From Flavobacterium paronense (GTDB lineage: Bacteria; Bacteroidota; Bacteroidia; Flavobacteriales; Flavobacteriaceae): DNA of 64,000 nt. Below the pieces are notes generated by a model. The model did no database searches, was not told the DNA's origin, and saw only the letters and a program-made list of their open reading frames with translations. A program made the translations under genes and the position numbers. Of the stretch, positions 1-61,978 are shown in pieces. The stretch is from the NCBI RefSeq assembly GCF_030409795.1, contig NZ_JAUFQN010000019.1, forward strand, positions 682,001-746,000, in the 5' to 3' direction. How positions within the stretch are numbered: the first letter of the stretch is position 1; each line of letters opens with the position of its first letter.

Positions 1-1944
1 AGAACTGAAGCATGTTTAACACAAGCAGCAATTAATAGTGATTTCGCTAGTTGGTTAGCAACAGCAACAGCAACAGGCGGATGTAATGGAGTTTTAAGAA
101 ATAACAATACAGGTGCTCCATCAGCTTGTGGTGGTTCAACAACTGTAACATTTACTTATACTAGTTCATGCGCTCCATTGACAACAACTTGTCAAGCTAC
201 ATATACAGTTCCAGCTTCACCAACAGTTGTGTTAACATGTCCAACAAATAAAAGAACTGAAGCATGTTTAACCCAAGCAGCGATTAATAGTGATTACGCT
301 AATTGGTTAGCAACAGCAACAGCAGTAGGCGGATGTAATGGTAATTTAACAAATAACAGTCAAGGCGCTCCATCTAATTGTGGAGGATCAAGTACAGTTA
401 CCTTTACTTATACAAGTACATGTGCTCCATTGACAACAACATGTCAGGCAACATATACAGTTCCAGCTTCACCAACAGTTGTGTTAACATGTCCAACAAA
501 TAAAAGAACTGAAGCATGTTTAACCCAAGCAGCGATTAATAGTGATTACGCTAATTGGTTAGCAACAGCAACAGCAGTAGGCGGATGTAATGGTAATTTA
601 ACAAATAACAGTCAAGGCGCTCCATCTAATTGTGGAGGATCAAGTACAGTTACCTTTACTTATACAAGTACATGTGCTCCATTGACAACAACATGTCAGG
701 CAACATATACAGTTCCAGCTTCACCAACAGTTGTGTTAACATGTCCAACAAATAAAAGAACTGAAGCATGTTTAACCCAAGCAGCGATTAATAGTGATTA
801 CGCTAATTGGTTAGCAACAGCAACAGCAGTAGGCGGATGTAATGGTAATTTAACAAATAACAGTCAAGGCGCTCCATCTAATTGTGGAGGGTCAAGTACA
901 GTTACCTTTACTTATACAAGTACATGTGCTCCATTGACAACAACATGTCAGGCAACATATACAGTTCCAGCTTCACCAGAAGTTGTGTTAACATGTCCAA
1001 CAAATAAAAGAACTGAAGCATGTTTAACCCAAGCAGCGATTAATAGTGATTACGCTAATTGGTTAGCAACAGCAACAGCAGTAGGCGGATGTAATGGTAA
1101 TTTAACAAATAACAGTCAAGGCGCTCCATCTAATTGTGGAGGGTCAAGTACAGTTACCTTTACTTATACAAGTACATGTGCTCCATTGACAACAACATGT
1201 CAGGCAACATATACAGTTCCAGCTTCACCAGAAGTTGTGTTAACATGTCCAACAAATAAAAGAACTGAAGCATGTTTAACACAAGCAGCAATTAATAGTG
1301 ATTTCGCTAGTTGGTTAGCAACAGCAACAGCAACAGGCGGATGTAATGGAGTTTTAAGAAATAACAATACAGGTGCTCCATCAGCTTGTGGTGGTTCAAC
1401 AACTGTAACATTTACTTATACTAGTTCATGCGCTCCATTGACAACAACTTGTCAAGCTACATATACAGTTCCAGCTTCACCAACAGTTGTGTTAACATGT
1501 CCAACAAATAAAAGAACTGAAGCATGTTTAACCCAAGCAGCGATTAATAGTGATTACGCTAATTGGTTAGCAACAGCAACAGCAGTAGGCGGATGTAATG
1601 GTAATTTAACAAATAACAGTCAAGGCGCTCCATCTAATTGTGGAGGATCAAGTACAGTTACCTTTACTTATACAAGTACATGTGCTCCATTGACAACAAC
1701 ATGTCAGGCAACATATACAGTTCCAGCTTCACCAACAGTTGTGTTAACATGTCCAACAAATAAAAGAACTGAAGCATGTTTAACCCAAGCAGCGATTAAT
1801 AGTGATTTCGCTAGTTGGTTAGAAACAGCAACAGCAACAGGTGGATGTAATGGAGTTTTAACAAATAACAATACAGGTGCTCCATCAGCTTGTGGTGGCT
1901 CAACAACTGTAACATTTACTTATACTAGTTTATGCGCTCCATTG
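1..1944 (+). repeat. 252-bp (84-aa) near-identical in-gene tandem repeats, family 1
   Basis: Seven complete 252-bp units begin at 181, 433, 685, 937, 1189, 1441 and 1693, preceded by a partial unit at 1-180. Two sub-types alternate: one with DYANW...NLTNNSQ and one with DFASW...NNNTG. Bases 1-547 equal 1261-1807 exactly, a higher-order duplication of five units (1260 bp). Each unit encodes several cysteines and ends in a TSxCAPL segment. Such identity points to recent unequal recombination or gene conversion, and is also a known site of assembly collapse. Confidence 0.95.
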
Positions 1945-4900
1945 ACAACAACATGTCAGGTTACATATACAGTTCCAGCGCCTGCAACATTAGTTGTAAA
2001 CGCTCCTGTATATAGTTCTAATTCATATACAAATCAAGCTGATGCTGATGCAGCATTCTTGGCTTGGTTAGCAGGATTTAATTTCAATGGTGGATGTAAT
2101 CCATCTGGAAGCTATGGAGAACCAACAGCACCGCCATATTGTGGAGGAACAAGAACAGTTACTTATACGGTAAATGATTATTGCCACGATGGACCAGTTA
2201 TTGTATCTGCAACATTTGTTATAACAGGACCTCCTACTGTAGTTGTAGCAACACCAAATCCAATTAATAGTTCTACTAGTTCTTGTGCTTATCCAACGCA
2301 AGCTGAAGCTGATGCATCATTTACTGCATGGTTAAATCAGTTTGGTGTTAGCGGAGGACTTAATCCTAACGGAAGTTTTATTGGAACACCAGCAGCACCT
2401 TCTTATTGTGGTGGTACAACAACAGTTACTTACATAGTAACTGATAGATGTTACGAAACAACAACACACATAGGAACGTTCACAATTGTGCCTGGAGCAC
2501 CAGTACATGTAACAGGACCAGCTATCAGCTCAACTAGTTCATGTGCTTATGCAAACCAAGATGCTGTAGATGCAGCTTTTGCAGCATGGTTAGCTCAATT
2601 TGCAGTGACTAATGTAGGTTGTAATTCTCCTACTGATAATCAAGGAAGTTTCAGTCTAACTGAATTTCAAGCACCAAGATTGTGCATAGGTGGAAGCATT
2701 GCTTTGACATATTCTTACTCTGATCATTGTACGCAAGATAGTGTAAGATCAACCTTTACAATTACACCATCAACACCAGTTGATGTAACAGGACCAACGA
2801 CTAGTTCAACTAGTTCATGTGCTTATGCAGACCAAGCAGCTGTTGATACAGCGTTTGCAGAATGGTTGGCACAGTTCCAAACAGTTAATGCAGGATGTGA
2901 TGCAACAGCACACTTCAATTTAACTGAATTCCAAGCACCAAGATTGTGTGTTGGAGGAAGTGTTTCATTAATCTATAGTATTTCAGATAATTGTAGTCAA
3001 GATAGCGCAAGTGCTACCTTTACAATTACACCATCAACACCAGTTGATGTAACAGGACCAACAACTAGTTCAACTAGTTCATGTGCTTATGCAGACCAAG
3101 CAGCTGTTGATACAGCGTTTGCAGAATGGTTGGCACAGTTCCAAACAGTTAATGCAGGATGTGATGCAACAGCACACTTCAATTTAACTGAATTCCAAGC
3201 ACCAAGATTGTGTGTTGGAGGAAGTGTTTCATTAATCTATAGTATATCAGACAACTGTAGTCAAGATAGCGCAAGTGCTACCTTTACAATTACACCATCA
3301 ACACCAGTTGATGTAACAGGACCAACGACTAGTTCAACTAGTTCATGTGCTTATGCAGACCAAGCAACTGTTGATACAGCGTTTGCAGAATGGTTGGCAC
3401 AGTTCCAAACAGTTAATGCAGGATGTGATGCAACAGCACACTTCAATTTAACTGAATTCCAAGCACCAAGATTGTGTGTTGGAGGAAGTGTTTCATTAAT
3501 CTATAGTATTTCAGATAATTGTAGTCAAGATAGCGCAAGTGCTACCTTTACAATTACACCATCAACACCAGTTGATGTAACAGGACCAACAACTAGTTCA
3601 ACTAGTTCATGTGCTTATGCAGACCAAGCAGCTGTTGATACAGCGTTTGCAGAATGGTTGGCACAGTTCCAAACAGTTAATGCAGGATGTGATGCAACAG
3701 CACACTTCAATTTAACTGAATTCCAAGCACCAAGATTGTGTGTTGGAGGAAGCGTAGCATTAACATATAGTATTTCAGACAACTGTAGTCAAGATAGTGT
3801 AAGTTCAACCTTTACAATTACACCATCAACACCAGTTAAAGTAACAGGGCCAGCTATTAGTTCAACTAGTTCATGTTATTATGAAAACCAAGCAGCTGTA
3901 GATGCAGCGTTTGATGCATGGGTTGCTCAATTCGTAACTGTAAATGCAGGATGTGATGCAACAGCACACTTCAATTTAACTGAATTCCAAGCACCAAGAT
4001 TGTGTGTTGGAGGAAGTGTAGCATTAACATATAGTATTTCAGACAACTGTAGTCAAGATAGTGTAAGTTCAACCTTTACAATTACACCATCAACACCAGT
4101 TAAAGTAACAGGGCCAGCTATTAGTTCAACTAGTTCATGTTCTTATGAAAACCAAGCAGCTGTAGATGCAGCGTTTGATGCATGGGTTGCTCAATTCGTA
4201 ACTGTAAATGCAGGATGTGATGCAACAGCACACTTCAATTTAACTGAATTCCAAGCACCAAGATTGTGTGTTGGAGGAAGTGTTTCATTAATCTATAGTA
4301 TTTCAGATAATTGTAGTCAAGATAGCGCAAGTGCTACCTTTACAATTACACCATCAACACCAGTTAAAGTAACAGGACCAACAACTAGTTCAACTAGTTC
4401 ATGTGCTTATGCAGACCAAGCAGCTGTTGATACAGCGTTTGCAGAATGGTTGGCACAGTTCCAAACAGTTAATGCAGGATGTGATGCAACAGCACACTTC
4501 AACTTAACTGAATTCCAAGCACCAAGATTGTGTGTTGGAGGAAGTGTTTCATTAATCTATAGTATATCAGACAACTGTAGTCAAGATAGCGCAAGTGCTA
4601 CCTTTACAATTACACCATCAACACCAGTTAAAGTAACAGGACCAACAACTAGTTCAACTAGTTCATGTGCTTATGCAGACCAAGCAGCTGTTGATACAGC
4701 GTTTGCAGAATGGTTGGCACAGTTCCAAACAGTTAATGCAGGATGTGATGCAACAGCACACTTCAACTTAACTGAATTCCAAGCACCAAGATTGTGTGTT
4801 GGAGGAAGTGTTTCATTAATCTATAGTATTTCAGATAATTGTAGTCAAGATAGTGTAAATTCAACTTTTACAATTACACCTACGCCAACAGTAACTTTTA

Positions 4901-7900
4901 CTTGTGGATCTGATAAAACAGTACCAGCATGTAGTACACAAGCTCAAGTAAATGCAGCATGGACTTCATTCTTGAATTCAACTACAGCAAGTGGTGGATG
5001 CGGTAACGGAACATTGACAAACAATGCACCAGCTAATGCACCATCAGCTTGTGGAGGATATGTAGATGTTACTTGGACATACAATGTAACTGGTTGTGGA
5101 CAATCACAAGCATGTACTAAACGATTTACAGTAACGGCTACACCTCAAGTTGTATTCGAATGTGGATCTGACAAAACAGTACCAGCATGTAGTACACAAG
5201 CTCAAGTAAATGCAGCATGGACTTCATTCTTGGCTTCAACTACAGCAAGTGGAGGATGTGGTATTGGAACATTAACAAACAATGCACCAGCTAATGCACC
5301 ATCAGCATGTGGAGGATATGTAGATGTTACTTGGATATATAACGCAAGTAATCCATGTGGACAAACTGAAGGTTGTCAAGGACAATTTAAAACTTTCACT
5401 ATTGGAGGTTGGGGAACAAGTTGTAATGGAGGTAATCCAGGATGTTATAGAGATAGTAATTTTACTGCAGCTTTTCCAAACGGCTTAGCTATCGGATGTG
5501 GAAACAATAAACTTAGTTTTACATCATCATCAGCAATTCAAAATTATTTACCTGCAGGTGGACCAGCAGCAGTTCTTACGACAGGGGCTGTGAATCCAAC
5601 TACTTCTAAAGGTGTGTTATCATCTCAATTGATTGCACTTACATTATCTCTTGGTTTTGATGCTTATGATTCTAACTTCTCAACTAGTAGTTCAAGTTTA
5701 GGTTCATTAACTATCAAGTCTGGTACTTTTGCAGGTATGACAGTATCTAGCTTTTTACAATTAGCAAATAATATTATTGGAGGTTGTTCTTCACAATATT
5801 CAGTGTCAGATATTAATGCAGTTGCTACAGCTATCAATGAAAATTTTGATAATGGAAATACTGATTTACAATTTTTAAACTGTAGTGGTGGACAAACTCC
5901 ACAAGGAAGTACTTATAGTTGTACTAAGCGATTTACAGTTACAGCACCTGCACCAGTAGTGATAACTTGTGGTCCTGATGTAATATTACCTGCATGTAGC
6001 ACACAAGCTCAATTAACTGCAGCATGGAATTCTTTCTTATCTTCTACAACTGCTTCAGGTGGATGTAATGGTGTGTTAACAAGAACTTCTTGTACTGCAC
6101 CATCATTGTGTGGAGGATATGTAGATGTTACATGGACTTATACAGTAAGTGGTTGTGGTCAACAATCAGGATGTGGAAGTACTAATTCAGTACATTGTAC
6201 AAAACGATTTACAGTTGCGGCACCTGCGCCAGTAACTTTAACTTGTGGTTCTAATTTTGTATTGCCAGCATGTAGCACACAAGCTCAATTAACAGCAGCA
6301 TGGAATTCATTCTTATCTTCAACAACTGCAACAGGTGGTTGTGGAGGTGTATTAACAAGAACTCAATGCAGCCCACCATCATTGTGTGGAGGTTATGTTG
6401 ATGTAACTTGGACATACACTGTAGGTTCATGTGGTCAGCAATCAGGTTGTGGAAGTACAAATTCACAATCATGTACAAGACGATTCACAGTAGCAGCACC
6501 ATCACCAGTTTCATTCAGATGTGGAACTGATATAACAGTGCCAGCTTGTAGTACACAAGCCCAAATAACTACAGCATGGAATTCATTCTTAGCATCAACT
6601 ACTGCAAGTGGTGGATGTGGAGGTGTATTAACAAGAACTTCAGCTACTGTTCCACCATCATGTGGAGGATATGTAGATGTTACTTGGACTTATACAGTAG
6701 CTTCATGTGGACAACAATCAGGTTGTGGAACAGGTAATTCATTAACATGTACTAAGCGATTTACTGTAGCTGCAACAGCACCAGTTGTATTCAACTGTGG
6801 TACAGATAAGATTGTACCAGCATGTAGCACACAAGCTCAAGTAACTGCAGCATGGAATTCATTCTTAACATCAACTACAGCAAGTGGTGGATGTAATGGA
6901 GTATTGACAAGAAGTACTTGTACTGCACCATCAGCATGTGGAGGATATGTAGACGTTACTTGGACTTATACAACAACTGCATGTGGTGGACAAGCTTCAA
7001 CACAATCATGTACCAAGCGATTTACAGTTGCTGCGCCATCTCAAGTGGCATTTAACTGCGGAACAGATATAAGAGTTCCGGCTTGTAGCACACAAGCGCA
7101 AGTAACAACAGCATGGAATTCATTCTTATCTTCAACAACTGCCTCAGGTGGATGTAATGGAGTATTAACTAGAACTTCAGCTACTGCTCCTTCAACATGT
7201 GGAGGATATGTAGATGTTACTTGGACTTATACGGTTAGTGTATGCGGACAACAATCAGGTTGTGGAAGCGGAGCTACTAACTCAGTGTCATGTACTAAAC
7301 GATTTACAGTTGAGGCTGCACCAGCTGCAACACTTAATTGTGGAAATAATATGATAGTAGCATCTTGTAGTACTCAAGCGCAAGTAAATGCAGCATGGGC
7401 TTCATTCTTAGCTTCAACTACAGTAAGTGGAGGATGTAGTTCTGGAACATTGACAAATAATGCGCCAACTGCACCACCAGCAACATGTGGAGGATATGTA
7501 GATGTGACATGGACATATAGAACAAATAGTACTTGTGGTCAACCAGTAACTTGTGGAGGTCAAACTTCAACTACTGGAACACAAACTTGTACTAAACGTT
7601 TCACAGTAGAAGCTGCAACACCTGCAACATTAAGCTGTGCAACCGATGTTAGAGTACCATCTTGTAGTTCACAAACACAAATAAATGCGACATGGGCTTC
7701 ATTCCTAGCTTCAACTACAGTAAGTGGAGGATGTAGTACTGGAACATTGACAAATAATGCACCAGCAAATCCACCAACAGCATGTGGAGGATATGTAGAT
7801 GTAACATGGACATACAGAACCAACAGTACTTGTGGTCAACCAGTAACTTGTGGAGGTCAAACTTCAACTACTGGAACACAAACTTGTACTAAACGTTTCA

Positions 7901-9354
7901 CAGTAGAAGCTCCAACACCTGCAACCTTAAATTGTGCAACCGATGTTAGAGTTCCATCTTGTAGTTCACAAGCACAAATAAATGCGACTTGGGCTTCATT
8001 CTTAGCTTCAACTACAGTAAGTGGCGGATGTACTACTGGAACATTGACAAACAATGCACCAGCTAATCCACCAGCAGCATGTGGAGGATATGTAGATGTG
8101 ACATGGACATATAGAACAAATAGTACTTGTGGTCAACCAGTAACTTGTGGAGGTCAAACTTCAACTACTGGAACACAAACTTGTACTAAACGTTTCACAG
8201 TAGAAGCTGCACCAGCAGTAACATTTAGCTGTGGAACCGATAAAACAGTAGCTTCATGTAGTACTCAAGCTCAAGTTAATTGTGCATGGACAGCATTCTT
8301 AGCATCAACTACAGTAAGTGGTGGATGTAGCACAGGGACATTGACAAACAATGCACCATCAACTCCACCATCAACATGTGGTGGATATGTAGATGTAACA
8401 TGGACATACAGAACAAACAGTACTTGTGGTCAACCAGTGACTTGTGGAGGTCAAACTTCAACTACTGGAACACAAACTTGTACTAAACGTTTCACAGTAG
8501 AAGCTGCACCAGCAGTAACGTTTAATTGTGGAAATAATGTATGTTTACCAGCATGTAGCTCTCAAGCTCAAGTTAATTGTGCATGGAATTCATTCTTAGC
8601 TTCAACAACTGTAAGCGGTGGATGTAGTTCAGGAACATTGACCAACAATGCGCCATCAGCTGCACCATCAGCATGTGGAGGATATGTAGATGTTACTTGG
8701 ACATACAGATCAAACAATACTTGTGGTCAAACCATTACATGTGGTGGAACAACATCTCAAGCTAGTGTTTATACTTGTACTAAACGATTTACAGTAACCG
8801 CAGGTGGTGGTGTAGACGTTTCAGGACCAGGAAGTGTAAGTTATCCTGCTACTAACTACTGTAGTCAATATGCAGTTAATTGTGCATTTGCTAATTGGTT
8901 AGCACAATTCACAACAGTGAGTTCAGGATGTGGAGCAACTGCAGTATTTAGTGGGGATTGTAGAGTAGCACCAAGTTGGGCTAATGGAGGAACTGTAAGA
9001 GTAACTTATAGTATCACAGGAAACTGTAATTCTGATAGCGTTTGTGCATCATTCACAATAACTAGAAGCTCATCTTGTAGTAAAATAGCTGAAGGTGGAG
9101 TTAAAACAGCAATGTCTGTAAAAGCTTATCCAAATCCATTTAGTGAAAACTTCAACTTAGATTTAGTAACTTCTACTGAAGATAAAGTAGGTGTAGCTAT
9201 TTATGATATGACTGGAAAATTAATCGAACAACGTGAGGTTAATGCAGAGGAAGTATCAGGATTACAAGTTGGGGATCGCTTTGCTTCTGGAGTTTACAAT
9301 GTAATTGTTACTCAAGGAACTGAAGTGAAAACATTACGAGTAATTAAAAGATAA
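1..9354 (+). CDS. Giant repetitive T9SS-secreted adhesin-like surface protein (5' end outside window)
   Basis: The frame is open from base 1, so the N-terminus lies upstream; 3117 residues are visible. The protein is almost entirely tandem cysteine-containing beta-sandwich-like repeats of three related families: 84-residue units (bases 1-1944), 88-residue units (2767-4878, with three diverged units just before), and units of about 90-105 residues starting with a CGxDxxVPAC-like motif (4879-8802). One last unit of the second type follows. Residues about 1796-1970 form a different domain nested in one repeat. The C-terminus from about residue 3041 is a T9SS type A sorting domain (AYPNPF, then YDMTGK, then LRVIKR at the end), so the protein should cross the outer membrane through T9SS and stay on the surface or be released. 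Repeats of this kind are usual in flavobacterial adhesins, but no ligand can be predicted. A strong terminator follows. The architecture is certain; adhesion is inference. Confidence 0.93.
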   Translation, partial: RTEACLTQAAINSDFASWLATATATGGCNGVLRNNNTGAPSACGGSTTVTFTYTSSCAPLTTTCQATYTVPASPTVVLTCPTNKRTEACLTQAAINSDYANWLATATAVGGCNGNLTNNSQGAPSNCGGSSTVTFTYTSTCAPLTTTCQATYTVPASPTVVLTCPTNKRTEACLTQAAINSDYANWLATATAVGGCNGNLTNNSQGAPSNCGGSSTVTFTYTSTCAPLTTTCQATYTVPASPTVVLTCPTNKRTEACLTQAAINSDYANWLATATAVGGCNGNLTNNSQGAPSNCGGSSTVTFTYTSTCAPLTTTCQATYTVPASPEVVLTCPTNKRTEACLTQAAINSDYANWLATATAVGGCNGNLTNNSQGAPSNCGGSSTVTFTYTSTCAPLTTTCQATYTVPASPEVVLTCPTNKRTEACLTQAAINSDFASWLATATATGGCNGVLRNNNTGAPSACGGSTTVTFTYTSSCAPLTTTCQATYTVPASPTVVLTCPTNKRTEACLTQAAINSDYANWLATATAVGGCNGNLTNNSQGAPSNCGGSSTVTFTYTSTCAPLTTTCQATYTVPASPTVVLTCPTNKRTEACLTQAAINSDFASWLETATATGGCNGVLTNNNTGAPSACGGSTTVTFTYTSLCAPLTTTCQVTYTVPAPATLVVNAPVYSSNSYTNQADADAAFLAWLAGFNFNGGCNPSGSYGEPTAPPYCGGTRTVTYTVNDYCHDGPVIVSATFVITGPPTVVVATPNPINSSTSSCAYPTQAEADASFTAWLNQFGVSGGLNPNGSFIGTPAAPSYCGGTTTVTYIVTDRCYETTTHIGTFTIVPGAPVHVTGPAISSTSSCAYANQDAVDAAFAAWLAQFAVTNVGCNSPTDNQGSFSLTEFQAPRLCIGGSIALTYSYSDHCTQDSVRSTFTITPSTPVDVTGPTTSSTSSCAYADQAAVDTAFAEWLAQFQTVNAGCDATAHFNLTEFQAPRLCVGGSVSLIYSISDNCSQDSASATFTITPSTPVDVTGPTTSSTSSCAYADQAAVDTAFAEWLAQFQTVNAGCDATAHFNLTEFQAPRLCVGGSVSLIYSISDNCSQDSASATFTITPSTPVDVTGPTTSSTSSCAYADQATVDTAFAEWLAQFQTVNAGCDATAHFNLTEFQAPRLCVGGSVSLIYSISDNCSQDSASATFTITPSTPVDVTGPTTSSTSSCAYADQAAVDTAFAEWLAQFQTVNAGCDATAHFNLTEFQAPRLCVGGSVALTYSISDNCSQDSVSSTFTITPSTPVKVTGPAISSTSSCYYENQAAVDAAFDAWVAQFVTVNAGCDATAHFNLTEFQAPRLCVGGSVALTYSISDNCSQDSVSSTFTITPSTPVKVTGPAISSTSSCSYENQAAVDAAFDAWVAQFVTVNAGCDATAHFNLTEFQAPRLCVGGSVSLIYSISDNCSQDSASATFTITPSTPVKVTGPTTSSTSSCAYADQAAVDTAFAEWLAQFQTVNAGCDATAHFNLTEFQAPRLCVGGSVSLIYSISDNCSQDSASATFTITPSTPVKVTGPTTSSTSSCAYADQAAVDTAFAEWLAQFQTVNAGCDATAHFNLTEFQAPRLCVGGSVSLIYSISDNCSQDSVNSTFTITPTPTVTFTCGSDKTVPACSTQAQVNAAWTSFLNSTTASGGCGNGTLTNNAPANAPSACGGYVDVTWTYNVTGCGQSQACTKRFTVTATPQVVFECGSDKTVPACSTQAQVNAAWTSFLASTTASGGCGIGTLTNNAPANAPSACGGYVDVTWIYNASNPCGQTEGCQGQFKTFTIGGWGTSCNGGNPGCYRDSNFTAAFPNGLAIGCGNNKLSFTSSSAIQNYLPAGGPAAVLTTGAVNPTTSKGVLSSQLIALTLSLGFDAYDSNFSTSSSSLGSLTIKSGTFAGMTVSSFLQLANNIIGGCSSQYSVSDINAVATAINENFDNGNTDLQFLNCSGGQTPQGSTYSCTKRFTVTAPAPVVITCGPDVILPACSTQAQLTAAWNSFLSSTTASGGCNGVLTRTSCTAPSLCGGYVDVTWTYTVSGCGQQSGCGSTNSVHCTKRFTVAAPAPVTLTCGSNFVLPACSTQAQLTAAWNSFLSSTTATGGCGGVLTRTQCSPPSLCGGYVDVTWTYTVGSCGQQSGCGSTNSQSCTRRFTVAAPSPVSFRCGTDITVPACSTQAQITTAWNSFLASTTASGGCGGVLTRTSATVPPSCGGYVDVTWTYTVASCGQQSGCGTGNSLTCTKRFTVAATAPVVFNCGTDKIVPACSTQAQVTAAWNSFLTSTTASGGCNGVLTRSTCTAPSACGGYVDVTWTYTTTACGGQASTQSCTKRFTVAAPSQVAFNCGTDIRVPACSTQAQVTTAWNSFLSSTTASGGCNGVLTRTSATAPSTCGGYVDVTWTYTVSVCGQQSGCGSGATNSVSCTKRFTVEAAPAATLNCGNNMIVASCSTQAQVNAAWASFLASTTVSGGCSSGTLTNNAPTAPPATCGGYVDVTWTYRTNSTCGQPVTCGGQTSTTGTQTCTKRFTVEAATPATLSCATDVRVPSCSSQTQINATWASFLASTTVSGGCSTGTLTNNAPANPPTACGGYVDVTWTYRTNSTCGQPVTCGGQTSTTGTQTCTKRFTVEAPTPATLNCATDVRVPSCSSQAQINATWASFLASTTVSGGCTTGTLTNNAPANPPAACGGYVDVTWTYRTNSTCGQPVTCGGQTSTTGTQTCTKRFTVEAAPAVTFSCGTDKTVASCSTQAQVNCAWTAFLASTTVSGGCSTGTLTNNAPSTPPSTCGGYVDVTWTYRTNSTCGQPVTCGGQTSTTGTQTCTKRFTVEAAPAVTFNCGNNVCLPACSSQAQVNCAWNSFLASTTVSGGCSSGTLTNNAPSAAPSACGGYVDVTWTYRSNNTCGQTITCGGTTSQASVYTCTKRFTVTAGGGVDVSGPGSVSYPATNYCSQYAVNCAFANWLAQFTTVSSGCGATAVFSGDCRVAPSWANGGTVRVTYSITGNCNSDSVCASFTITRSSSCSKIAEGGVKTAMSVKAYPNPFSENFNLDLVTSTEDKVGVAIYDMTGKLIEQREVNAEEVSGLQVGDRFASGVYNVIVTQGTEVKTLRVIKR
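2767..4878 (+). repeat. 264-bp (88-aa) in-gene tandem repeats, family 2
   Basis: Eight units start at 2767, 3031, 3295, 3559, 3823, 4087, 4351 and 4615, each 264 bp. The encoded unit begins PSTPV(D/K)VTGP and contains TEFQAPRLC and SDNCSQDS. Units at 3823 and 4087 carry a variant half (YENQ...DAWVAQFV), so the array is a mosaic of two half-unit types. Diverged relatives lie just upstream (about 1960-2766), and one lies after family 3 (8803-9078). Confidence 0.95.
4879..8802 (+). repeat. In-gene repeats, family 3 (CGGYVDVTWTY units)
   Basis: About twelve units share an opening with a Cys-Gly pair, a VPAC or similar motif, W(T/N)SFL, a GGC motif, CGGYVDVTWTY and a closing CTKRFTV strand. They are more diverged from each other than families 1 and 2, except the four at about 7320-8515, which share a nearly identical linker rich in Cys, Gly and Thr. 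The second unit is interrupted by the nested domain at 5386-5910. Confidence 0.92.
5386..5910 (+). other. Domain nested inside one adhesin repeat (about 175 aa)
   Basis: Unit 2 of family 3 starts normally through its WIY strand and CGQ motif, then runs into about 175 residues unlike the repeats, and ends with the usual CTKRFTV strand. The inserted piece contains FTIGGWG, CNGGNPGC, a LxxQLIALTLSLGFD helix-like stretch and INENFDNG. It is more polar and less repetitive than its host. I recall similar GGWG...ALTLSxGFD modules in other bacterial surface proteins but cannot name a family. The boundaries come from aligning host repeats by eye. Confidence 0.75.
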
Positions 9355-18192: not shown

Positions 18193-18414
18193 CTAACTTT
18201 TCGATTTTAAAGTATAGATTCCGCCCGCAAAAAGCAGAATCGCAGCACCAATATACATATAACCTTGTTGTTTACCGGATTCATTCGAGGCATCTATTTT
18301 CAGTCCAAGGAAATTAATCTGTTTAGTGTTGTCAGCAATTTTATTAAGCCCAATATAACCAATAGATATACTGACTATAATCAATAATGCTCCGATAAGT
18401 TTTGATGTGTTCAT
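18193..18414 (-). CDS. Small two-TM membrane protein
   Basis: 73 residues with two hydrophobic segments (about 5-25 and 51-68) joined by a polar loop (DNTKQINFLGLKIDASNESGKQ). The layout resembles small DUF3185-type proteins, but the match is by eye only. It lies directly downstream of a ~20-bp-period repeat array and converges with purM. Function unknown. Confidence 0.65.
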   Translation of the reverse strand: MNTSKLIGALLIIVSISIGYIGLNKIADNTKQINFLGLKIDASNESGKQQGYMYIGAAILLFAGGIYTLKSKS

Positions 18415-18424
18415 AATGTAGTTG

Positions 18425-18613
18425 TTTAGTTTCTCTAAATTTAAGGGATTAAATTTGTTTAAACGTTACAGAGTTTTGTTCAAACGTTATAGAATTTTGT
18501 TTACTCCTAATTTAGTTTTGCTTACTATTTATTTAGTTTAGAGAACTCTTAATTTAGTTTTGTTTACTACTTATTTAGTTTAGAGTTCTCCTCATTTAGT
18601 TTAGAGTACTATT
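18425..18613 (+). repeat. Intergenic array A, ~20-bp period (42-bp dimer), TTTAGTTT core
   Basis: About nine degenerate units of 18-22 bp carry a core ATTTAGTTT(T/A)G. A 42-bp composite unit (ATTTAGTTTTG(C/T)TTACTA, then ATTTAGTTTAGAG) occurs twice in succession, from about 18510 and 18551. Two units contain exact TAnnTTTG matches (18513-18520, 18555-18562). The array fills the gap between the 3' end of the DODA gene and the start of a small membrane-protein gene. It matches array B at 35071-35280. It has no spacers of CRISPR kind and no coding potential. Confidence 0.75.
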
Positions 18614-18615
18614 TC

Positions 18616-19446
18616 TTAACCAATCTTTACTGAAGTCATACTCAAACTACCAGCCAATAGCTTATCATTAAACAATGATAGTTCTTCATTTTTTTGTTTT
18701 AAGCCCAAAGTATAAATTAGGGGCAAATAATGATCAGGAGTAGGAATGGCTAACTGTATTGCTTTAGATTGTTTTTCATAGTCAATCAACGATTGAAAAT
18801 CACCATCCAAAAGGTGATGGTTGAATTTACTTCGGGCTTCAATTGCCCAATCAAAACCGTAATCGTCTTTGTGGAAATTATGAAAATCAACAAGGCCTAA
18901 ATTGTGAACAATGTTTCCACTTCCAATAATCAAAATGCCTTTGTCACGTAACTTACTTAGTTTTTGTGCTAGTTCAAAATGATATTGTGCTGGTTTGGTA
19001 TAGTCAATGCTCAACTGAATTACAGGAATGTCAGCTTTAGGATATAAATGCTTCAACACCGACCAAGCTCCATGATCTAAACCCCATTTTTCATCGAGTG
19101 CTACTAAAGTTGGTTCTAATAATAATTTGGTTGCTTCAGCCAATTCAGGATTTCCTTTTGCAGGATATTGAACTTCATAAAGTGCTTTTGGAAATCCACC
19201 AAAGTCGTGAATCGTTTGTGGCATTTCCATAGCCGTAACTTTGGTTCCATTAGTAAACCAATGCGCCGAAATACAGATAATAGCTGTTGGCTTTGGTAGT
19301 GTTTTGGCAACGTTTCTAAAACCAATTACAAATTCATTTTCTTCAATAGCGTTCATCGGACTTCCATGCCCAAGAAATAATATGGGCATGCGCTCCGTAT
19401 TTGATAAACTTTCTGAAAACTGACTTAAAGTATTGAGGTTTTGCAT
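18616..19446 (-). CDS. ygiD: DODA-type extradiol ring-cleavage dioxygenase (YgiD-like)
   Basis: The 276-residue cytoplasmic metalloenzyme belongs to the class III (LigB-like) extradiol family related to 4,5-DOPA dioxygenase. Likely metal ligands are seen in LFLGHGSPM (His about 27), CISAHWFT (His about 62) and DHGAWSVLKHLYP (His about 124), with GSGNIVHNLG near residue 176. The natural substrate in bacteria is uncertain; YgiD acts on L-DOPA in vitro. It is a single gene with no catabolic neighbours, so a pathway role cannot be assigned. Array A lies immediately after its stop. Confidence 0.88.
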   Translation of the reverse strand: MQNLNTLSQFSESLSNTERMPILFLGHGSPMNAIEENEFVIGFRNVAKTLPKPTAIICISAHWFTNGTKVTAMEMPQTIHDFGGFPKALYEVQYPAKGNPELAEATKLLLEPTLVALDEKWGLDHGAWSVLKHLYPKADIPVIQLSIDYTKPAQYHFELAQKLSKLRDKGILIIGSGNIVHNLGLVDFHNFHKDDYGFDWAIEARSKFNHHLLDGDFQSLIDYEKQSKAIQLAIPTPDHYLPLIYTLGLKQKNEELSLFNDKLLAGSLSMTSVKIG

Positions 19447-34711: not shown

Positions 34712-34909
34712 TTATTCTTTTTGATTAAAATAAGCAACACCCATCCAGATTAAGCCCAGACCAATTCCTAAAGTAGCTGCAAGCTGAAGAGTGTCAAATA
34801 TAAATCCTAAAACCAACGAGATAATTACACAGCAAAAAAATACACTAAGTGCCTTTAAAAAACCACTTTTCTTAATTTCCTTTAAAAACTTACTTTTTAA
34901 TGTTTCCAT
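34712..34909 (-). CDS. Small membrane protein
   Basis: 65 residues: a basic amphipathic N-terminus (KSKFLKEIKKSG), then two hydrophobic segments (about 19-38 and 43-60). It lies downstream of array B and a terminator, reading away from purA. The arrangement of array, then small membrane protein, mirrors that at 18193-18613, though the proteins are not clearly related. Function unknown. Confidence 0.6.
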   Translation of the reverse strand: METLKSKFLKEIKKSGFLKALSVFFCCVIISLVLGFIFDTLQLAATLGIGLGLIWMGVAYFNQKE

Positions 34910-35024
34910 ATTTTCTATGATTATATATTTAAATTAGCCTTTAACTAGTCAATAAACATAACTTAAGTCATTCTTATTCAGACTTATTTCTGTAGCTAAT
35001 ATAGGAAAAAAACATTCTCAAAAT

Positions 35025-35057
35025 AAAAAACCCTAACATTAACTGAAAGGGTTTTTT
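35025..35057 (-). terminator. Hairpin terminator between purA/array B and the small gene
   Basis: AAAAAACCCT pairs with AGGGTTTTTT (10 bp, 13-nt loop), with T-rich flanks in both directions. Leftward transcripts from purA would pass through array B and stop here. Confidence 0.8.
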
Positions 35058-35070
35058 ATTTGTGAACTCA

Positions 35071-35280
35071 CAATTTAGTTTTGCTTACTAGTTTCTTTGT
35101 TTTGCTTGAACCCAATTAAGTTTGGTTTAAGTGTTATTTAGTTTTGCTTGAACCTAATTAAGTTTGGTTTAAACTGAATTTAGTTTAGTTCGAACCCAAT
35201 AAAGTTTTGTTTGAACCCAATTAAGTTTGGTTTAAACTGAATTTAGTTTTGCTTAAGCCTAATTAAGTTTGGTTTAAACG
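35071..35280 (+). repeat. Intergenic array B, exact 21-bp period
   Basis: This fills most of the 399-bp gap at 34910-35308, the only gap over 300 bp in the window. About ten units occur. Five from 35156 to 35260 are exactly 21 bp, alternating AATTAAGTTTGGTTTAAAC and AATTTAGTTT(T/A)G types. Units at 35156 and 35219 are identical. Seven exact TAnnTTTG matches fall on the plus strand (for example 35159-35166, 35222-35229, 35244-35251). The rest of the gap holds the terminator at 35025-35057. No open frame or known RNA is seen. Confidence 0.85.
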
Positions 35281-35308
35281 TTTATGATTTATTAGTCTAG
35301 GGAAGTGA

Positions 35309-36580
35309 TTATCTCGTTATTGTCTGCTTTCTATCCGGTCCAACAGAAACAATCTTAATCGGAACTTCAACTTCTTTTTCGATGAACTCGATATAGTCTT
35401 TTAGCTCCTTAGGCAAACTTTCAAAAGTGGTTAAACCGGTCAAATCCTGTTTCCAGCCTTTGAATTCGGTGTAAATAGGAGTAACGTTTTCTTCTTCTAT
35501 ATTATAAGGCAAATGCTGAATTACTGCACCTTTGTAGTTGTATGCTGTAGCTACTTTTAGCGTATCAAATCCAGAAAGTACGTCGCCTTTCATCATCATT
35601 AGTTGGGTCACGCCATTAATTTGGATAGCATATTTCAAAGCCACTAAATCAAGCCAGCCACAACGTCTTTTTCTTCCGGTAACCGAACCAAATTCGTTAC
35701 CTACTCTTGCCATTACATCGCCAGCATCGCCAAAATCCTCAGTTGGAAATGGTCCGGAACCTACACGTGTAGTATACGCTTTGAAAATTCCATAAACTTC
35801 TTTGATTTTATTTGGAGCGATCCCTAAACCAGTGCAAGCGCCAGCAGCTGTGGTGTTTGATGAGGTTACAAACGGATAAGTTCCAAAGTCAACATCCAAT
35901 AACGAACCTTGTGCGCCTTCACAAAGAATAGATTTTCCAGCTTTTTGAGCTTGTGTTAAATATTCTTCGCTGTCAATAAAATCTAATTTTTTTAAGTCTT
36001 CAATGGCATCAAAGAATTCTTTTTCCAATTCGGGTAAGTTGTATTGAATATCGACATTATAAAATGCAATCATTGCTTCATGCTTGTCTGCCAAAGCGCG
36101 ATATCTTTCTTTGAAATCTTCTAATTCAATATCGCCTACGCGGATTCCGTTTCTTCCGGTCTTGTCCATATAAGTTGGTCCAATACCTTTTAGGGTTGAA
36201 CCAATTTTAGCCTTGCCTTTGGCTGCTTCAGAAGCTGCATCTAATAATCTATGCGTTGGTAGAATCAAATGCGCTTTTCTTGAAATAAACAATTTCGATT
36301 TTAAATCGAGATTGAATTTTGCCAAACCATCAATTTCACTTTTGAAAACGACTGGGTCAATCACCACACCATTTCCAATGAGGTTGATATTGTTCCCATG
36401 AAAAATCCCCGAAGGAATGGTTCTTAAAACGTGTTTGATGCCATCAAATTCTAAAGTATGTCCGGCATTTGGTCCGCCTTGAAAGCGAGCGATGATGTCG
36501 TAATTTGATGTAAGAACGTCAACAATTTTTCCTTTGCCTTCGTCGCCCCATTGTAATCCGAGTAGTAAATCTACGGTCAT
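35309..36580 (-). CDS. purA: Adenylosuccinate synthase
   Basis: GTP-dependent first step from IMP to AMP. 423 residues, full length. GLQWGDEGKGKIVD at residues 7-20 is the N-terminal GTP/IMP loop with the catalytic Asp. GGPNAGHT, IGSTLKGIGPTYMDKTGR, GAQGSLLDVDFGTYPFVTSS and TGRKRRCGWLD follow in order. It is co-directional with a small membrane protein, a Fur-family gene and the RelA/SpoT gene upstream. Its transcript runs into array B. Confidence 0.98.
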   Translation of the reverse strand: MTVDLLLGLQWGDEGKGKIVDVLTSNYDIIARFQGGPNAGHTLEFDGIKHVLRTIPSGIFHGNNINLIGNGVVIDPVVFKSEIDGLAKFNLDLKSKLFISRKAHLILPTHRLLDAASEAAKGKAKIGSTLKGIGPTYMDKTGRNGIRVGDIELEDFKERYRALADKHEAMIAFYNVDIQYNLPELEKEFFDAIEDLKKLDFIDSEEYLTQAQKAGKSILCEGAQGSLLDVDFGTYPFVTSSNTTAAGACTGLGIAPNKIKEVYGIFKAYTTRVGSGPFPTEDFGDAGDVMARVGNEFGSVTGRKRRCGWLDLVALKYAIQINGVTQLMMMKGDVLSGFDTLKVATAYNYKGAVIQHLPYNIEEENVTPIYTEFKGWKQDLTGLTTFESLPKELKDYIEFIEKEVEVPIKIVSVGPDRKQTITR

Positions 36581-37284: not shown

Positions 37285-37365
37285 GGGTCAAAGATAGTTT
37301 TTAGTTTAAAAGTTTAAAAGTTTATGGGTTTAAAGTTTTAAACGAATTGTTGATAAGCACAAATT

Positions 37366-59904: not shown

Positions 59905-61851
<1,947 letters not shown>

Positions 61852-61875
61852 CTAGCCCCGATTGCAACGGTATCC

Positions 61876-61916
61876 TTTTACACCTGACAGGTTTTTGAAA
61901 CCTGTCAGGTGTAAAA
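61876..61916. repeat. Perfect 19-bp stem palindrome (ACACCTGACAGG...CCTGTCAGGTGT)
   Basis: TTTTACACCTGACAGGTTT pairs perfectly with its complement after a 3-nt loop (TTG). It lies 25 bp after gyrB and 63 bp before mdh and could terminate gyrB transcripts, though no real T run follows. Its core also appears after the amylase gene (34554-34570), which suggests a dispersed element. Confidence 0.85.
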
Positions 61917-61978
61917 AATAAAGTGAAAAGCGGGAAACAGCTTCAAAAAAATAAAACAAACAACAAAATAATAAAAGA

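Follow-up and report, generated by a model that had tools for sequence, protein, structure and literature searches.

The best description of array B, a run of 21-bp units beside purA in Flavobacterium paronense, is as part of an apparently undescribed two-turn satellite family that is elsewhere tied to a small protein. What is conserved in these arrays is the period and not the sequence of the unit, and in the genus they recur upstream of a gene for a small basic protein, MARRKL, named from its first residues. The reading that we prefer, with a probability of roughly two in five, is that the array is a cooperative protein-binding array and that MARRKL is the candidate binder, regulating its own gene; the binding and its effect on expression are what comparison of sequences suggests.

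Two periodic arrays in Flavobacterium paronense

The window, that is the whole stretch of 64,000 nucleotides that was analysed, holds two arrays, A and B (Table 1). Where the first-pass annotation had noted five consecutive units of exactly 21 bp in B, at a spacing of two DNA turns, there are ten, and TRF gives periods of 21 and 63 with 0% indels. The 21-bp units are partly grouped into a 42/63-bp higher order, and the two identical copies that had been seen 63 bp apart are AATTAAGTTTGGTTTAAACTG, starting at 35156 and 35219. A and B do belong to one family, as was also claimed. The word ATTTAGTTTTGCTTACTA occurs once in each, and in a search of the genome by a two-unit pattern with up to three mismatches 11 of 13 sites fall inside A and B (a reversed control pattern has 3). 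Array A is the sole relative of B recovered by this pattern, which could miss arrays built of other units. In the sequence model, seven units of array A were scored (18467-18613).

Table 1. Features in and around arrays A and B, with positions in the window
Feature	Position	Strand	Remarks
73-aa ORF	18193..18414	-	DUF5963 below cut-off; 52 bp from its start to 18467 (31 bp to 18446)
Array A	18446..18613	+	eight 21-bp units, array B family; first unit degenerate
LigB-type dioxygenase gene	18616..19446	-	Pfam PF02900, E 5.4e-21; 3′ end 2 bp from array A
65-aa ORF	34712..34909	-	no match in Pfam; starts 162 bp from array B
Terminator-like hairpin with T runs	35022..35060 (about)		between array B and 65-aa ORF; read in the sequence, formed in minus-strand fold
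Array B	35072..35281	+	ten 21-bp units, unbroken register; core AATTWAGTTTNG + 9-bp linker
purA, adenylosuccinate synthetase	35309..36580	-	Pfam PF00709 (Adenylsucc_synt), E 3.2e-171

Arrays A and B are non-chance periodic arrays. Their self-match at 21 bp is 0.72 and 0.66, against maxima of 0.58 and 0.52, respectively, among 3000 first-order Markov sequences of matched make-up scored at every period from 8 to 63, none of which reached the array concerned; the earlier argument against chance low complexity holds. When the 150-bp stretches of the window are ranked by period 21, B scores 107/150 and A 106, with the third-best stretch at 66. Coding repeats were rejected because both arrays have stops in all six frames, and no reading frame is open across all 38 arrays looked at in this way, though single arrays do have open frames. 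The unique spacers of CRISPR are absent, the 21-bp units being contiguous. A Bacteroidetes promoter array was also considered by eye. The Bacteroidetes -7 box is TAnnTTTG, and a TTTAGTTTTG variant of the unit resembles it, but this reading was dropped as most units are without the box and 21 bp is the wrong spacing to the -33 box.

An Rfam scan of the window gave no match at the arrays, the only match being a Flavo-1 RNA elsewhere (61850-61941, RF01705, E 3e-12). The window further includes, in 1-9354, a very long ORF (3058 aa from 178) with tandem repeats of 252, 264, 276 and 297 bp, which resembles a repetitive surface protein, and, at 37296-37342, a small AGTTTAAA / 23-bp tandem repeat immediately upstream of a fur-like gene.

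From the purA stop codon to array B there are 27 bp, and as the terminator-like hairpin lies beyond the array on the purA strand, B is probably within the 3′ untranslated part of the purA transcript. Array A is located between the LigB-type gene and the 73-aa ORF. The first-pass annotation had placed both arrays between the 3′ end of a minus-strand gene and a small membrane-protein gene; the 3′ end and the small ORF stand, while the membrane nature of the ORFs was judged by eye only. The purA gene is present in 58 of 60 relatives. None of 29 related loci (the best 30 of the 58 were taken, own genome among them) has a periodic stretch beside purA at periods of 15 to 31 and a self-match of 0.6 over 84 bp, and so the array is not a general part of the purA locus.

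The array family in other genomes

The pattern AATTWAGTTTNG-N9-AATTWAGTTTNG, scanned over 84,980 species genomes, matched 10 DNA stretches. Five are clear Flavobacteriales arrays, from F. macrobrachii, sp. J27, sp. NRK F7, F. profundi and MAG AC_MB403. Four are 21-bp arrays of doubtful kinship with a common core, two from Bacteroidetes GWF2_29_10 (L063, L072) and two from one Clostridiales MAG (L068, L069); these may be unrelated 21-bp repeats and are not counted as members. The tenth stretch is a chance match of two units. Arcobacter L065, viral contig L073 and Flavobacterium L062 were set aside as two-unit chance matches.

Within the genus, the sequence-only, three-unit model R1 was run against 398 genomes and matched 34 at E 1e-3 or better. 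Real arrays by a period test are present in 14 of the 398, own genome included, and the further copies in related genomes for which the first-pass annotation had proposed a search therefore exist. The remaining 20 matched genomes were taken as chance: 16 failed the period test, and four (G307, G187, G263 and G299) have single matches of E 6.9e-4 or worse and no locus. As the R1 search scored 13 candidates per genome, array numbers are lower bounds; there are at least two to four arrays per genome in nine of the 11 genomes examined, own genome counted, and the 26 arrays fetched from ten array genomes have 6 to 17 units each, weak units included. One array of G371 (L100, about 1456-1686) has 21-bp units that by eye are about CCTTATGCCAAANTANATAAG, in a genome listed as 100% complete and without a MARRKL gene. 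Several like arrays keep the period and not the letters, for which the consensus first offered, AATTwAGTTTkGyTTrAAC, is too narrow. No account of the family was found in literature searches that mostly excluded subscription journals, in keeping with the earlier suggestion of an undescribed element, and A and B are apparently members of a dispersed, non-coding two-turn satellite family that has not been described.

The constancy of the period is apparent from 41 arrays that had been excised in 21-bp steps. In all 41 the best period is 21 within the range 15-30 and 42 within the range 30-55, and mean self-match is 0.67 at 21 and 0.78 at 42 but 0.36 at both 20 and 22. Rounded self-match is higher at 42 than at 21 in 33 arrays, equal in 2 and lower in 6. 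Two and four helical turns repeat contacts on one face of the DNA, which points to cooperative protein binding.

The same array sites recur between species, with the orientation of the core constant at each locus. Apart from arrays before the MARRKL gene (L115, L118, L121, L127, L130, L138), there are arrays before an outer membrane efflux protein gene (Pfam OEP; L119, L122, L067 and, with 584 bp between, L129), before an rlmD-like gene of the tRNA_U5-meth_tr family (L123, L126, L128, L131; Pfam for three) and between kdpC and a porin gene (L114, L064). Two arrays (L120, L124) overlap the stop codon of a gene called coaD by 2-3 bp, with a sulphate permease gene 25 bp on, and another (L132) is 123 bp after a gene called coaD, without the permease gene. 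A preceding stop codon is at most 30 bp away, or overlapped by 2-3 bp, at arrays A and B, the kdpC arrays and the coaD arrays in two of three genomes, a placement that does not look like that of a classical operator. The small membrane-protein gene that had seemed part of the design was rejected as a partner: elsewhere the genes next to arrays are of many sorts, and the one that recurs is the small basic protein gene.

Arrays of one genome are also more alike than arrays of one locus. Mean array similarity is 0.797 between different loci of one genome (27 pairs), 0.749 for one locus across different genomes (31 pairs) and 0.737 for unrelated pairs (384 pairs), with 23 close-relative pairs and 7 arrays without R1-type units left out. 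Likeness within a genome exceeds likeness at a locus (Mann-Whitney p 5.5e-4), and the latter is no better than that of unrelated pairs (p 0.27), the pairs being non-independent. Genomes G388 and G411 show this likeness strongly; in G255 and G303 it is weak or absent, as it is between A and B, whose similarity is 0.75. Nothing like the shared ends of an insertion element or MITE was found when flanks of 250 bp were compared for 28 arrays: between different loci the longest match is 38 bp, and long matches occur only where one locus is compared across genomes or an array's left flank with its right. The arrays of L129 (the efflux-gene locus of G255) and L125 (G411) are flanked by direct repeats of 96%/113 bp and 86%/157 bp.

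A small basic protein gene downstream of arrays

The ORF downstream of six fetched arrays, MARRKL, has 115-124 aa. Searches of Pfam, PHROGs, NCBIfam, PADLOC and PDB sequences gave no accepted match for its product. The protein is basic (19-25 K+R vs 13-17 D+E in 13 sequences) and in a single-sequence fold model is all-helical at low confidence (pLDDT 76.6, pTM 0.40); no DNA-binding domain was recognised in it. A phage or plasmid gene and a defence system were rejected as readings of it, there being no match in 50,697 phage records and none in PADLOC. Scanning viral contigs by two short peptide patterns gave no MARRKL match, and one of 72,556 plasmid records matched.

Among the 398 genus genomes 22 match a MARRKL profile at E 0.01 or better, and 16 have an intact gene, 17 genes in total; the copy of G338 is broken by two stops, G175 and G376 have remnants and three genomes have weak partial matches only. 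With two intact genes at contig ends omitted (G087 and the second copy of G364), a 21/42-bp array is present upstream at 16 of 16 testable loci (15 intact, 1 broken), self-match being 0.68-1.00 and the best period 42 or 21. For the broken copy, whose start was placed too far downstream by script, only the presence of the array counts. By comparison, no period gives a self-match above 0.62 in 218 background windows (700 bp each, largely coding), and the 700 bp downstream of 15 measured MARRKL loci give 0.44-0.59. The distance from array end to MARRKL start codon is about 80 to 310 bp. In G082, G324, G373, G364, G393, G184 and partly G209 the unit before the gene is of a non-R1 type, with the period kept. 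A 39-bp repeat with self-match 0.79 is found downstream of the MARRKL gene of G087 (L143), the upstream side of which is cut by the contig end.

An R1-type array and an intact MARRKL gene occur together in 8 of the 398 genomes (arrays in 14, gene in 16; Fisher p 2.4e-9, uncorrected for kinship). Across 13 species MARRKL identity correlates with array similarity (Mantel r 0.46, 0 of 5000 permutations as high), a correlation that could be explicable by kinship alone. Six of the 14 array genomes are without the gene: that of F. paronense, in which two profile searches gave none, G385, G172 (76% complete), G351 (83% complete), G262 and G371. Arrays A and B are either orphans or served by another protein.

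The gene is solitary, with neighbours that differ between loci; the next downstream gene is convergent in 10 of 14 listed loci, by eye. Twenty neighbour proteins, taken from 11 loci and run against Pfam, include no partition NTPase; 7 have no match, one is an ABC ATPase and one a histidine-kinase-type ATPase. At L127 (G411) and L130 (G255) a SPASM-domain protein with small ORFs lies beside the MARRKL gene, like a peptide-maturation cluster.

Homologs beyond the genus

Seven MARRKL homologs outside the genus, one of them at a contig end, were recovered when 395 Bacteroidota genomes were searched with a profile. Clear arrays are present at two of the six testable homologs in other families, L168 with 14 units of 21 bp and L170 with about eight (by eye; 4.7 copies by TRF), the TRF check of distant homologs having covered L167, L170, L171 and L173. 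The L173 homolog has a weak 2.2-copy repeat only, and L167, L171 and L172 have no array upstream. At L167 (the G503 homolog) there is a 240-245 bp repeat of 2.2-2.3 copies on each side (1-531, 2692-3242) and no 21-bp array.

Further afield, both MARRKL homologs on plasmid pA of the cyanobacterium Kovacikia minuta have upstream arrays, 4.1 copies of 42 bp for the first and 10.2 copies of 21 bp with 0% indels for the second. The first also has a 41-bp tandem array downstream (L166 4976-5088), and for that reason this case alone would be weak. The cyanobacterial scope of the association is one plasmid with two homologs.

Alternative explanations

The arrays could be a neutral satellite without function: slippage or unequal crossing-over would have duplicated a 21-bp word, which spread occasionally, and the unit length would persist because copying preserves it. 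This we consider rather unlikely, despite the absence of a partner gene from the genome that has A and B, the purA locus of 29 relatives that is without the array, and a unit number that varies at one locus between very close genomes (12 in NRK F7, 10 in F. profundi). What counts against it is a 21/42 period that is kept in two phyla, and at all 16 testable MARRKL genes of the genus in spite of unrelated units, since the unit length of a neutral array would be expected to change; array loci and orientation common to several species count against it too. It is improbable, in our view, that array and MARRKL form a minimal selfish unit, the protein aiding array expansion, conversion or spread and A and B being traces. 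Patchiness of the gene (16 of 398 genus genomes have it intact, G338 has a broken copy, and G175 and G376 have remnants), its varied neighbourhoods, array likeness within genomes and arrays without the gene would suit such a unit, but flanks at different array loci match only briefly (longest 38 bp), the protein has no recombinase or transposase match and the two MARRKL genomes searched by BLAST show just one detectable array.

We regard as quite improbable a role at the RNA level, in which the transcribed array (for B, part of the purA 3′ UTR) would form successive hairpins or offer an RNA-binding protein a series of sites. The plus strand of array B does fold far better than shuffles (z -6.4), its minus strand has z -2.8 with the terminator hairpin included, several arrays lie between co-directional genes, and 8 of 38 arrays, B included, are self-complementary at the 5% level. 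The F. macrobrachii array, however, has z -0.4 on the plus strand and -3.3 on the minus strand, 30 of the 38 arrays, A included, are below the 5% level, Rfam has no match for the array and an exact two-turn phase is without evident meaning in single-stranded RNA. Palindromic units as a rule were rejected on the same count of 8 in 38, to which B belongs and A does not. Least of all do we expect the units to be activator sites of a sigma-54 enhancer. At 8 of 15 genus MARRKL genes a site like the -24/-12 promoter (TTGGCAC-N5-TTG), 55-66 bp ahead of the start codon, scores at least 12.2; the 99% quantile of background is 12.5, and the near-identical NRK F7 and F. profundi are both among the 8. Against this, scores are low in G082, G373, G324, G364, G393 and G122 and at distant homologs, and no consistent site is present beside other arrays, A and B included, for which reason a general enhancer role was rejected for the non-MARRKL arrays. 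Cyanobacteria are not known to have sigma-54, which also counts against it.

Comparison with known systems

In plasmid partition loci such as parC/ParR, tubC/TubR and parS/omega of pSM19035, a small binder is encoded near an upstream run of direct repeats, and in pSM19035, as treated in the same account, several of the arrays overlap promoters and the binder acts as a repressor too (PMC5016525). The direct repeats upstream of the candidate binder gene MARRKL are like those of parMRC and tubZRC as that account presents them (PMC5016525). Unlike type II/III partition loci, there is no ParM/TubZ-type NTPase among the scanned MARRKL neighbours, and unlike partition binders MARRKL is without a ribbon-helix-helix (RHH) or winged-helix match in Pfam, NCBIfam or PDB sequences, its low-confidence model being all-helical. 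The MARRKL arrays, unlike partition arrays, are mostly chromosomal and do not conserve the unit sequence. Known partition iterons are shorter than the 21/42-bp units of the MARRKL arrays.

Dispersed related non-coding tandem arrays within one genome are described for Leptospira interrogans and Methanocella conradii (PMC6749651), and the Flavobacterium arrays are similarly related, non-coding and at several places in the genome. The units listed for those satellites are 37-69 nt, and the sections on them do not name a partner gene (PMC6749651). Table 2 of that survey, for units over 30 nt only, has one F. psychrophilum family, of 69 nt, and a 21-nt family elsewhere in the survey is possible (PMC6749651). 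Heptameric TAACTGA repeats are likewise intergenic direct repeats found in both Cyanobacteria and Bacteroidetes, as well as in Beggiatoaceae, and are often upstream of genes according to the part of that work that concerns them (PMC4679880); their unit is 7 nt, however, and the Flavobacterium-type arrays lack a period of 7 or 14 bp (mean self-match 0.31), and TAACTGA occurs once in their 9774 bp. The VNTR loci described for F. psychrophilum, of the same genus, are intergenic tandem repeats as the arrays are, with units of 4-9 bp instead of 21 bp (PMC4501049).

Proposed role and its meaning

If the preferred reading of a cooperative protein-binding array is right, every 21-bp unit (2 x 10.5 bp) would turn an identical protein-binding surface to one side of the helix, and a small protein would bind ten or more times in series, cooperatively, to give a filament, wrap or loop. 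The arrays would belong primarily upstream of the MARRKL gene, encoding a basic helical protein of roughly 115 aa, and the MARRKL protein, as candidate binder, would regulate its own gene via the array. Extra arrays elsewhere would be secondary regulatory or architectural sites, with a potential effect on expression or chromosome structure. A wider proposal, which we put forward tentatively and as less likely than not, is of an undescribed two-part system of Bacteroidota and Cyanobacteria, composed of a solitary small basic helical protein and some ten sites at exactly two turns. In such a system the signal that is conserved would be the phase, and within a genome the letters could change in all arrays together, as if arrays and binder co-evolve.

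Functional DNA is usually known by its conserved letters, and here it is the spacing that is conserved across two phyla, with the letters free and a tie to one gene. Such a system would escape ordinary motif searches. The MARRKL protein family gains a testable role, and the pairing would parallel, in bacteria, fast-evolving satellites with their binding proteins.
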